Below are positions 29,580 to 33,412 of a stretch of DNA of 40,822 nucleotides, one piece after another. The stretch comes from Gammaproteobacteria bacterium. GTDB lineage: Bacteria; Pseudomonadota; Gammaproteobacteria; Ga0077536. The first letter of the stretch is position 1, and every line of letters begins with the position of its first letter. The stretch is from NCBI GenBank assembly GCA_019747795.1, contig JAIEQK010000315.1:1-40822 (forward strand), written 5' to 3'. A program made the position numbers and the translations under genes. The notes beneath the pieces were generated by a model. That model was not told the DNA's origin and ran no database searches. It worked only from the letters and a program-made list of their open reading frames with translations.

Positions 29580-30794
29580 TCACAGCGCGATCTGCACCCG
29601 CAGGCCGAGGACCAGGGCGTCGTCGAGGGTACCGTCGGTGCCCGGGTCGATGACGTACTGCAGGTCCGGCTGGACGGACAGCCAGGGCGCCGGCGTGACC
29701 AGGTAGGTCAACTCGAGGGCGGTCTCGGCGCGTTCGGCGGTCGGGTCGAGGCGCATGAAATGGTCGCCATTCCGCGCGTGGGCCAAGGCCAGGCCGGCCA
29801 CGTCCGCCGGCCGGCAGGCGCAGGGCCCGGTCCAGTTGACGCCGGCGCCGACGTAGGTCGATATCTGGTTGTTGTCGCCGTCGGCGAATCCAAGCTGGGT
29901 GAAGACTCCGACGCCGCGCCCATCCTCCTGCCGCCACAGATCGCTCTCCGCGATCGCGTAGATCCCTGAGTTGTCGTCCCGCGGCACGCCGTCCAGGTCG
30001 TCGAAGTTGGCGGTGCGATACCAGCCGCCGACGCCAAGCTTGTAGTAGCGCCCCTCGCCACCGAGCAGGCCGGCCTCGGCGATGGCGAACACGCCGTCGC
30101 CGTGATCGAACTGGATCTGCGGGCCGTAGGGATTGTCGGGGTCGCCCGCCACACCGTCGTACACCGCGGCGAGCAGGTAGGTGTTCGGCGTCCAGTTCAG
30201 CCGCAGACGTATGCCCGGCGCGGTGACCGGAAAGGTCGAGGGGCCGGCCTGCGTCACGTCGATGCCGATGCCGAGCGAGCTGTTCATGAACAGCGTGCTC
30301 ATCTCCGTGAGATAGAAGTCCTCGTTGATTTCGTGCAGGCCAACCAGCAGGCCGAGGCGATCATCCAGCAGGCGCTGCTCGTAGCTGAGACCGTAGAAGG
30401 TCACCGTGTTGACGATGGCTTCGTGGTTGCTGGAGATCTGGATGTCGCCCACGCGTTGACTCGGGAAGCCCCCCACGGCACCGATGATGTGCATGCGGAA
30501 GGTGCCGTTCTGCCACCAGCCCGCGGTGCCGGTATCCAGGTTGAATACCACGTCCAGATTGCCGAGCGCCTCGACGCCGCGCGAGCGGCCGCCATCGACG
30601 ACCGCCATCACGTCGCTGGTGGCGACGAACTCCATGTCCAGGCCGCGTTCGGCGAGCGCCGAACGGTGGCCGTTCCAGTCGCCGAGCAGCCAGGGCTGCG
30701 CGTCATCGGCGGCCGTGGCCCCCTGCGCCAGCCAGGATCCGGCCAGCAGGGCCCAGGCCCGTGCGCCTCCGCGCACGCTCAGAACTCGTTCCAT
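29580..30794 (-). CDS. OprB-family carbohydrate-type porin
   Basis: 404 residues. A signal peptide (about 1-28, ending [11 protein letters not shown]) precedes a Gly/Asp/aromatic-rich beta-barrel of alternating strands: [27 protein letters not shown] at the start, [27 protein letters not shown] in the middle, and a terminal run of strands ending LGLRVQIAL. The opening DWNG and the layout are those of OprB, outer-membrane porins selective for sugars. Here the substrate may differ. Its ATG lies 16 bases inside the end of the chemoreceptor gene, so the two form an operon. I infer that the porin and receptor may serve the same nutrient. Confidence 0.85.
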
Positions 30795-31525
30795 ACGTCA
30801 CTCCCGTTGCCGCCCGCGGCGATCAGCGTTGCGGCTGGCGCGGCCGCCGGCGCGGCGCGCTCGGACCACGGCCGGTTGGCCTTGCGGCGCTCGACGCGCG
30901 GCGCTTCCGTCGCTTCCACCTGGGGGGCGGTAGCGTCGGCGGCGCCGCCCTTGAAGAAGGCCATGAGATCGGTCAGGGACCGCGTCTCGTCGTCCATCGA
31001 CTCGCTGGCCGCGGTCGCTTCCTCGACCAGCGCGGCGTTCTGCTGTGTCACCTCGTCGAGCTGCACCAGCGCGCGGTTGACCTGTTCGATGCCGACCTGC
31101 TGTTCCTCGGAGGCGGCGGTGATCTCGGCGATGATGTCGCTGACGTTCTTCACCGCGCCGACGATGTCGCGCAGCGTGCTGCCCGATTCGTTGACCAGCT
31201 GCGAGCCGTGGTTGACCTTGTCGACGCTGTCGCCGATGAGGTCCTTGATCTCCTTGGCCGCCGCGGCGCTGTTCTGCGCGAGGTTGCGCACCTCGCTCGC
31301 CACCACCGCGAAGCCGCGTCCCTGTTCGCCGGCGCGTGCCGCTTCCACCGCCGCGTTCAGCGCCAGCAGGTTGGTCTGGAAGGCGATGCCGTCGATGACC
31401 GAGATGATGTCGGCGATCTTGGCGCTGGCGCTGTTGATCTCGTTCATCGCGCCGACCGCGTCGGCCACCACCTTGCCGCCCTTTTCGGCCTCGCTGCGCG
31501 CGGAGGCGGCGAGCTGGTTCGCGCG
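30779..31525 (-). pseudogene. Chemoreceptor C-terminal signalling domain, separated by an in-frame TGA
   Basis: This is the rest of the gene at 31526-33412, in the same frame straight after its TGA stop. About 248 residues are open: [20 protein letters not shown], then the highly conserved receptor hairpin tip [41 protein letters not shown], then an Ala/Arg-rich linker. The protein ends VWNEF, which fits the xWxxF pentapeptide that tethers CheR/CheB. There is no further damage, so the interruption is recent, an error, or read through. A GTG at 31471 could restart translation, but such a fragment would lack membrane and sensing parts. The porin gene overlaps its end by 16 bases. Confidence 0.8.
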
Positions 31526-33412
31526 TCACGCGTTCTCGGTGTTCTCCTGCACGCGGGTCGTGAGCGACTGGATGGCCGAGGTGGTCTCCTCGATGGAGGC
31601 CGCCTGTTCCTGGGTGCGACGGTTGAGGTCCTGGTTGCCCTTGGCGATCTCGCTCGCCGAGCTGCCTATGCTGGAGGACGAGTCGCCGATGCGCTTGACC
31701 ATGTTCGCGAGGTTGGCGATGGAGGCGTCCATCGCATCGCGCAGCACCGCGAACTCGCCCTGGTAGTCGCCTTCCATGCGCTTGGACAGGTCGCCGGCCG
31801 CGAGCGCCGTCATGACGGTGCGCGCGGCGGTGATCGGCTGCGCCACGGAATCGAGCATGTTGTTCATGCCCTCGACGATCTTGCGGAAGTCGCCCCAGTG
31901 GCGCTCGAGCGCGGCGCGCTCGTTCAAGCGGCCCGCCTGCGCGGCCTCCACCAGCGTGGTCGCGTCCTCGATCATCGCACGCAGCACTTCGCTGCAGGTG
32001 TTCAGGTTGTTCTTGATGTCGTTGAACGCGCCGTGGAACTCGGCGGTGATCGGCGCCGGCAGCTTGCCGTCGGCGATCGCGCTCAGGTGCGCGGCGGCGA
32101 CGTTCAGCGGCGCGGTGACCGCGTCCATCATCTGGTTGACCGACAGCGCCAGCGCGCGGGTGAAGCCGCGGAAGCGTTCGGCCTCCAGGCGGCTGTCGAG
32201 GCGGCCGGCGGTGGCGTCGTCGAGCACCGCCTGGATCTGGCGCTCCGCTTCGCGCTGCTCGGTGAGATCCACCCACTCGCACACCACGCCGAGGTGCTCG
32301 CCCTGTTCGCCGCGTACCGGGGTGGCGGTGATGGAGAAGGTCTTGCCGCCCAGTACGAACTCGTCGGTGCGCGGCGCGGTCAGGCGCAGCAGCGTGTCGC
32401 GCATGCCCCGGTCTATGTAGAACTGCTCGATGCCGTGTCCGATCATCTGGGCGGTGTCGAAGCCGGGCAGGTCCTTGCGCAGGTCGGCTGCGTAGCGCGC
32501 GAACATCTCGCGCGCGGTGTCGTTGACGTAGACCACGTCCAGGCGGTCGTCACTCAGCACCACGTTGGTGGTGGCGGCGTTCAGGGCCTGCTGCACGCGG
32601 AACGCGGCCTGCGCGCGCAATTGCTCGGCGCGATGCTGCGCATCGAGGTCGTCCAGCACGCCGTTGAACGCGGTCTCCACCCCGGAGAATTCGTGCTTGA
32701 AGCCCGACAGGCGCGTGCCGTTGCTGTCGCCACCGCGCAGCGCTTCAATCGCTGCGCGCAGCGTCTCGAGCGGGTTGACCACGCTGCGCACCAGGAAGTA
32801 GGACACCACCAGCGCGGCGATGGCCGCGGCGAGGATCACGACCGACATCAGCATCACCGACCGCGCGGCCAGTGCGATGGCGGCGGTCTCGGCCTGATTG
32901 GCCTTGTCTTCCACGAGGTCCGAGACCTTGGACATCTCACCCTCGAGCGCGCTGAAGGCGACGAGGAAGTCCGGCATCTGCTTCTCCGCCGCGGCGCTGT
33001 CGGTGAAGGCCTGTTGCACGATGGTATTGGCCGCGGTCTCGTAGGCTTGCAGCGCCGGCGCGACCGACGCGAGGGCCTCCTTCACGTCCGCCGACAGGGG
33101 CAGCGCCTGGTTGTCGGCGAGCACCGTCTCGAAGTTGCCGATGTGCTCCTTCAGATCGCTCTCGACCTCGCGGCGCGCCTCGGCATCGCCACTCGCGGCC
33201 GCGCGCAGCGCTGACAGCACGTCAGCGCGCAGCGCGTCGTGCATCATGTCGGCTTCCATGTGGTTGCGCAGGGCGCTCAATTGGACGTTCAGCACCTTCA
33301 GCGCCTCGCCCTGGGCTTTCTCGCCGTGATAGCCGACGAGACCCACCACCAAGGTGGCGACGATGCTGAAGGCCGCAAAGGTCCATAGTTTCTGCTTGAC
33401 GCTCAGATCCAT
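31526..33412 (-). CDS. Methyl-accepting chemotaxis protein, N-terminal part up to in-frame TGA
   Basis: 628 residues before a TGA stop (31526-31528). Together with the downstream frame it would be an 877-residue receptor. Layout: TM1 about 12-28; a helical periplasmic sensor domain of the four-helix-bundle type (30-182); TM2 185-208; HAMP-like 209-262; a PAS-like domain (275-385, ALNAATTNVVLSDDRLDVVYVND); two further HAMP-like repeats (about 395-520 and 521-575); and the start of the signalling helix up to TTRVQENTENA. The usual sequence next is RQANQL; here it is stop-RANQL, suggesting CGA to TGA. I chose the ATG at 33412 (GGAG six bases upstream) over a longer frame. A sigma-28-like promoter lies upstream. 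Confidence 0.85.
   Translation of the reverse strand: MDLSVKQKLWTFAAFSIVATLVVGLVGYHGEKAQGEALKVLNVQLSALRNHMEADMMHDALRADVLSALRAAASGDAEARREVESDLKEHIGNFETVLADNQALPLSADVKEALASVAPALQAYETAANTIVQQAFTDSAAAEKQMPDFLVAFSALEGEMSKVSDLVEDKANQAETAAIALAARSVMLMSVVILAAAIAALVVSYFLVRSVVNPLETLRAAIEALRGGDSNGTRLSGFKHEFSGVETAFNGVLDDLDAQHRAEQLRAQAAFRVQQALNAATTNVVLSDDRLDVVYVNDTAREMFARYAADLRKDLPGFDTAQMIGHGIEQFYIDRGMRDTLLRLTAPRTDEFVLGGKTFSITATPVRGEQGEHLGVVCEWVDLTEQREAERQIQAVLDDATAGRLDSRLEAERFRGFTRALALSVNQMMDAVTAPLNVAAAHLSAIADGKLPAPITAEFHGAFNDIKNNLNTCSEVLRAMIEDATTLVEAAQAGRLNERAALERHWGDFRKIVEGMNNMLDSVAQPITAARTVMTALAAGDLSKRMEGDYQGEFAVLRDAMDASIANLANMVKRIGDSSSSIGSSASEIAKGNQDLNRRTQEQAASIEETTSAIQSLTTRVQENTENA

Follow-up and report, generated by a model that had tools for sequence, protein, structure and literature searches.

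Analysis of a 40,822-nucleotide stretch of DNA (the window) from a gammaproteobacterial draft genome identified a chemoreceptor gene on the minus strand (33412–30779) whose reading frame is broken by one in-frame TGA. Based on the comparisons below, this stop is probably a real and recent nonsense mutation that disables a conserved receptor in the lineage of the window genome, an ordinary event. What is seen directly is the stop itself, the intact gene in relatives, and a frame that is otherwise undamaged. A recent knock-out was the first option offered by an earlier reading made from the sequence alone (the sequence-only reading), and it is supported here as the best one, with intact full-length copies of the gene in both congeners analyzed.

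An in-frame TGA interrupts a chemoreceptor gene

The gene spans 878 codons, from an ATG at 33412 to a final TGA at 30781–30779, and translation of this frame meets stops only at codon 629 (TGA, 31526–31528, minus strand) and at its end, with no other stop or frame break. The 5′ part (31529–33412, minus strand) has 628 codons that encode a 4-helix sensor, a PAS domain, a HAMP domain, and the start of the first signaling helix. The 3′ part (30782–31525, minus strand), 248 codons past the stop, encodes a methyl-accepting chemotaxis protein (MCP) signaling domain with its tip and a C-terminal VWNEF. Codon-usage log-odds look like those of coding sequence before and after the TGA (31.7 upstream and 34.3 downstream, 80 codons each), and in alignments to the orthologs of the two congeners both homology and frame continue through it. 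Read on the plus strand, this stretch gives something different.

The sequence-only reading had placed the gene at the correct coordinates, leaving the strand (minus) unstated. Its description of a full-length receptor gene broken by a single TGA, with the same frame on both sides, no other damage, an intact tip-coding part, and a C-terminal VWNEF, agrees with the frame translation, the congener alignments, and the codon usage.

Domain make-up and comparison with known receptors

In the protein obtained by reading through the stop, matches over the respective cut-offs were found to 4HB_MCP_1 (the 4-helix sensor, residues 2–180), PAS_4 (residues 284–388), and HAMP_2 (best stretch, residues 504–567). 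The MCPsignal domain (PF00015, residues 633–789, 180.6 bits against a cut-off of 34.6) lies entirely past the stop. The signaling domain and the upstream sensor and HAMP regions of a methyl-accepting chemotaxis protein are therefore encoded, but the frame is not uninterrupted, and because of the TGA at codon 629 the gene is classed as a broken, not a working, methyl-accepting chemotaxis protein.

The cytoplasmic part resembles Aer2-type receptors. Residues 486–877 match the Aer2-type model NF041847, to which the whole protein scores 553.7 bits, well under the 1200-bit cut-off, and residues 268–480 match the Aer2 chain of PDB entry 3vol (the Aer2 structures compared were 3vol and 4hi4). Unlike the Aer2 type, the window receptor has an N-terminal 4-helix sensor that matches 4HB_MCP_1, as well as the TGA interruption.

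The hairpin tip binds CheA and CheW in known receptors, and the C-terminal CheR-tether pentapeptide follows the pattern xWxxF. The VWNEF C terminus is present in the window gene and in both congeners, and with six CheR-type matches in the genome it is a candidate CheR tether. The signaling part (residues 526–845) aligns without gaps to Escherichia coli Tsr (PDB 6s1k and 1qu7), placing codon 629 on an Arg at chain position 324 of 551; Tsr differs in being uninterrupted, and no match to its sensor part was reported. In PMC4692393, the Tsr pentapeptide is given as NWETF and adaptation sites are given as 297, 304, and 311; codon 629 falls past these sites and before the tip, so the 628-residue product is without a tip.

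PHROGs were of no help, with two weak matches and, on the signaling part, a single family whose function is unknown. The 20 plasmid-record matches listed cover 26–31% of the query, and no plasmid record reaches 80%. All Rfam matches over the gene were far under gathering scores and were taken as chance.

Codons 629 and 630 in related genomes

The genus comparison covered three genomes, the window's own included. A full-length copy without a stop is present in both of the others (G001:C41 and G002:C5), which is the pattern of a nonsense pseudogene, with intact orthologs in close relatives (2/2 congeners) and the disabling change here. These orthologs are homologous over their whole length (73 and 70% identity, aligned from residue 1 or 2 to 877) and have the same OprB porin gene as a neighbor. 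They differ in having no stop: codons 629–630 are CGC CAG (Arg-Gln) in both congeners and TGA CGC (stop-Arg) in the window (codon 630, 31523–31525, minus strand), a difference of four bases in six. No near-identical second copy of the receptor gene was found in the window's own genome.

A wider alignment gave 129 hits, paralogs included and with several loci contributing more than one hit; setting aside two hits to the window gene itself and one with a gap left 126. At the position of codon 629 these have Arg in 24 hits, Cys in one (a paralog in a Polaromonas metagenome-assembled genome), and a stop in none. Restricting the count to hits that cover the site at 45% identity or more leaves 25, with Arg at 629 in 16 of them and Gln at 630 in 20. 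The sequence-only reading had taken Arg to be usual at this position, and the residue is common there without being universal. That reading had also written the local sequence as ENA-R-QANQL, but codon 630, directly behind the stop, is CGC and encodes Arg instead of Gln.

A single CGA-to-TGA change had been proposed as the origin of the stop. Two adjacent codons differ from the congeners and none of the 54 Arg codons of the window gene is CGA, so such a change would explain only part of the difference; two more distant hits do carry CGA at this position. As the aligned codons stand, the stop is separated from the congeners' codon by at least two substitutions, and the next codon has changed as well. 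A CGA-to-TGA step is possible given a prior silent change, and would leave the Gln-to-Arg neighbor unexplained. Private changes of neighboring residues are common in this gene (residues 521–815 hold 30 columns, many of them adjacent, in which the congeners agree and the window differs), so the pair of changes is no proof of a single event. Micro-inversion was tried as a source of both codon changes. Inverting a short segment at the site does away with the stop, with one residue still different; a null in which the second codon was random behaved identically in 2000 of 2000 trials, however, which makes this test uninformative.

Some relatives were also flagged for internal stops. In seven of the eight flagged places inspected (L025 and seven stretches), the first stop is the end of the receptor frame. 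The eighth, at another position, is in congener G002 (L132, 5955–7211, minus strand, contig C4), where a multi-HAMP chemoreceptor gene has a single in-frame TAA ahead of its signaling domain. Such breaks therefore occur in the genus, sequence errors apart.

Accuracy of the sequence at codon 629

The main rival explanation is that the gene is intact in the cell and that the consensus is wrong at codon 629, which we consider unlikely, though the most serious of the alternatives. The assembly is a draft in 331 contigs, and a gene that is otherwise undamaged and is intact in both congeners is also what an erroneous base call would leave. Against an error, the adjacent codon 630 also differs from both congeners. 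In addition, 29 pieces of the genome, the window among them and 600,822 bases in all (about a tenth of the total), were scanned for in-frame stops flanked on each side by 80 coding-like codons. Of the nine that turned up, seven have an ATG-type start no more than 22 codons further on and look, from their translations, like ordinary gene borders; the other two are the receptor stop and the TGA of a known selenoprotein. Since this selenoprotein is the sole further case with no start close by, errors of this type are not common in the assembly, but the scan sees only clean in-frame stops in about a tenth of the genome and therefore sets only a loose bound on the error rate.

Possible restart downstream of the stop

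An in-frame GTG (31469–31471, minus strand) lies 54 nucleotides 3′ of the TGA behind a Shine–Dalgarno (SD)-like site, and a restart there would yield, next to the sensor stub, a separate soluble signaling tip 230 residues long. We regard such a two-part receptor as very unlikely. Its SD-like site equals that of the OprB start in strength (both −6.9 kcal/mol), and the ratio of nonsynonymous change past the stop is 0.87 (defined below). The duplex energy at the GTG exceeds the 5% quantile for random positions (−6.6 kcal/mol) only slightly; the site is not evidence of use. The SD-like bases also encode EKGGKVV residues common to the congeners, so coding explains the site. The same ratio is raised in the tip core (2.26), and no relative examined has a split at codon 629.

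A fuller form of this proposal, which is if anything less likely, holds that the stop made two cooperating proteins, a 628-residue membrane stub and a sensor-free, VWNEF-bearing array tip of 230 residues started at GTG 31471, with translation continuing into OprB. If functional, such a split would amount to a naturally occurring receptor whose sensor and tip are different chains; among the papers listed, none was found on a working receptor split by a stop.

Selenocysteine insertion and read-through

The window's own genome encodes tRNA-Sec, SelA, and SelB on one contig (C291) as well as a known selenoprotein, so recoding of the UGA needed a real test. Under this explanation the UGA is read as selenocysteine, or by a near-cognate tRNA, and a full-length receptor is made. 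We give it very little credence. Besides the machinery, what can be said for it is the Cys at the codon 629 position in the Polaromonas paralog (L043) and the identity of the next base, UGA followed by C being a leaky context. Set against these are the Arg of both congeners and the 126 other aligned hits, with no stop and a single Cys. The stop read-through suggested by the sequence-only reading is thus not conserved in the relatives examined, the inspected flagged ones included. There is no redox motif at the receptor site. Among the tRNA genes examined (42 tRNA-family matches and a tRNA-Sec match, all analyzed with ARAGORN), in which a suppressor tRNA was sought, the only UGA-reading anticodon is that of tRNA-Sec.

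The selenoprotein of this genome provides a worked contrast. It is a ResA-like WAxxUGC protein (L185, 7316–8458, minus strand; C327:27316–28458) that matches NF041054 (304.7 bits; cut-off, 300), and like the receptor gene it contains one in-frame TGA, with sequence that looks coding before and after it. In the seven best homologs covering the site (L239–L245, all from other genomes, one of them congener G001), this TGA is kept at the same place in 7/7, within W-S-S-W-TGA-G-C-R. In a selenocysteine-decoding genome, the UGA of a genuine selenoprotein is therefore kept across relatives, whereas that of the receptor is private to one genome. The selenoprotein further differs from the receptor in its W-U-G-C motif and in a same-loop hairpin found at seven of eight loci, its own included. 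Formate dehydrogenase, sought as a selenoprotein control, gave no match above the family cut-off.

Hairpin tests were less decisive. Constraints on the bacterial selenocysteine insertion element (bSECIS) were taken from the legend of Figure 2 of PMC13188914. In our own version, the model accepts the receptor site, which speaks for recoding, and seven of eight selenoprotein loci, but it also accepts 323 of 1500 random TGAs. A stricter form of the hairpin, of our own design, with a bulged U and a loop starting with G, fails at the receptor, passes in the selenoprotein of this genome, and passes at 413 of 13,173 background sites. Folding energy past the stop is no better than that of shuffled sequences at the receptor site, nor is it at the selenoprotein. 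The hairpin tests do not decide the question, and it is the relatives that carry the case against recoding.

The selenoprotein gene would be split by a standard-code gene caller. A second redoxin-like gene of the same genome (C288:3055–4212), 45–49% identical to the first, has one flagged TGA and similarly flagged copies in several relatives, and it may be another selenoprotein.

A phase-like on/off switch at codon 629, also raised by the sequence-only reading and favored by the single, reversible-looking site, has next to no probability, as no substrate for it is visible: the site lacks a short-unit repeat (a single, weak 12-base array lies at 31338–31364), and no inverted-repeat pair flanks the TGA closely.

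Constraint and age of the interruption

Nonsynonymous change was expressed as a ratio (the dN ratio), dN on the window branch over dN between the congeners, from simple substitution counting in three species. For the receptor this ratio is 1.35 over the whole gene, 1.49 before the stop, and 0.87 after it, with 2.12 for residues 500–628 and 2.26 for the tip core (residues 631–810); for the neighboring genes it is 1.22 (OprB), 1.22 (ABC transporter), and 0.91 (AMP-binding enzyme). The receptor's branch dN/dS is 0.38, compared with 0.22, 0.30, and 0.30 for the same three neighbors. Taken whole, the receptor gene is under constraint similar to that of its neighbors, evolving at most slightly faster, and its signaling core shows raised dN ratios to either side of the stop.

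The dN ratios above those of the neighbors (1.49, 2.12, and 2.26), the GTG with its SD-like site, and the loose bSECIS pass are the points against the nonsense reading. The raised segments could reflect constraint relaxed earlier, or no more than a faster-evolving branch, and the absence of other damage in the frame fits a recent event. Third-position G+C in the receptor gene has shifted on the window branch (0.93, against 0.74 and 0.80 in the congeners), so the constraint figures are given little weight.

Predicted consequences and the neighboring porin gene

In the preferred nonsense-mutation reading, the gene of a transmembrane chemoreceptor, Aer2-like in its cytoplasmic part, would have acquired the stop, probably recently. 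Translation would end past residue 628, in the first signaling helix, and the product would consist of the sensor, PAS, and HAMP regions. Lacking the hairpin tip and the VWNEF tail, this product would be unable to bind CheA and CheW through the tip and would not signal alone. We infer that the base calls are correct, the change recent, and the product null, with expression of the downstream OprB gene perhaps lowered.

The genome has 12 MCP-domain matches, including the window gene, with three CheA-type and six CheR-type matches. Since 11 other MCP-domain matches and the CheA- and CheR-type genes remain, chemotaxis as such need not be lost. Loss of one of about a dozen chemoreceptors by point mutation is an ordinary event and has little significance alone.

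Directly downstream of the receptor gene is an OprB-family porin gene with an intact frame (29580–30794, minus strand). The two genes adjoin not only in the window but also in both congeners and in G028, a genome from a different genus in the family; this adjacency suggests a sensor and uptake pair. The porin ATG lies closely 3′ of the receptor stop in the congeners; in the window the porin frame starts either at an ATG that overlaps the last (VWNEF) codons of the receptor or at a GTG just past them. Although this porin ATG has the SD-like site of its own noted above, expression of the porin may be lowered if the last 744 bases of the receptor frame go untranslated.
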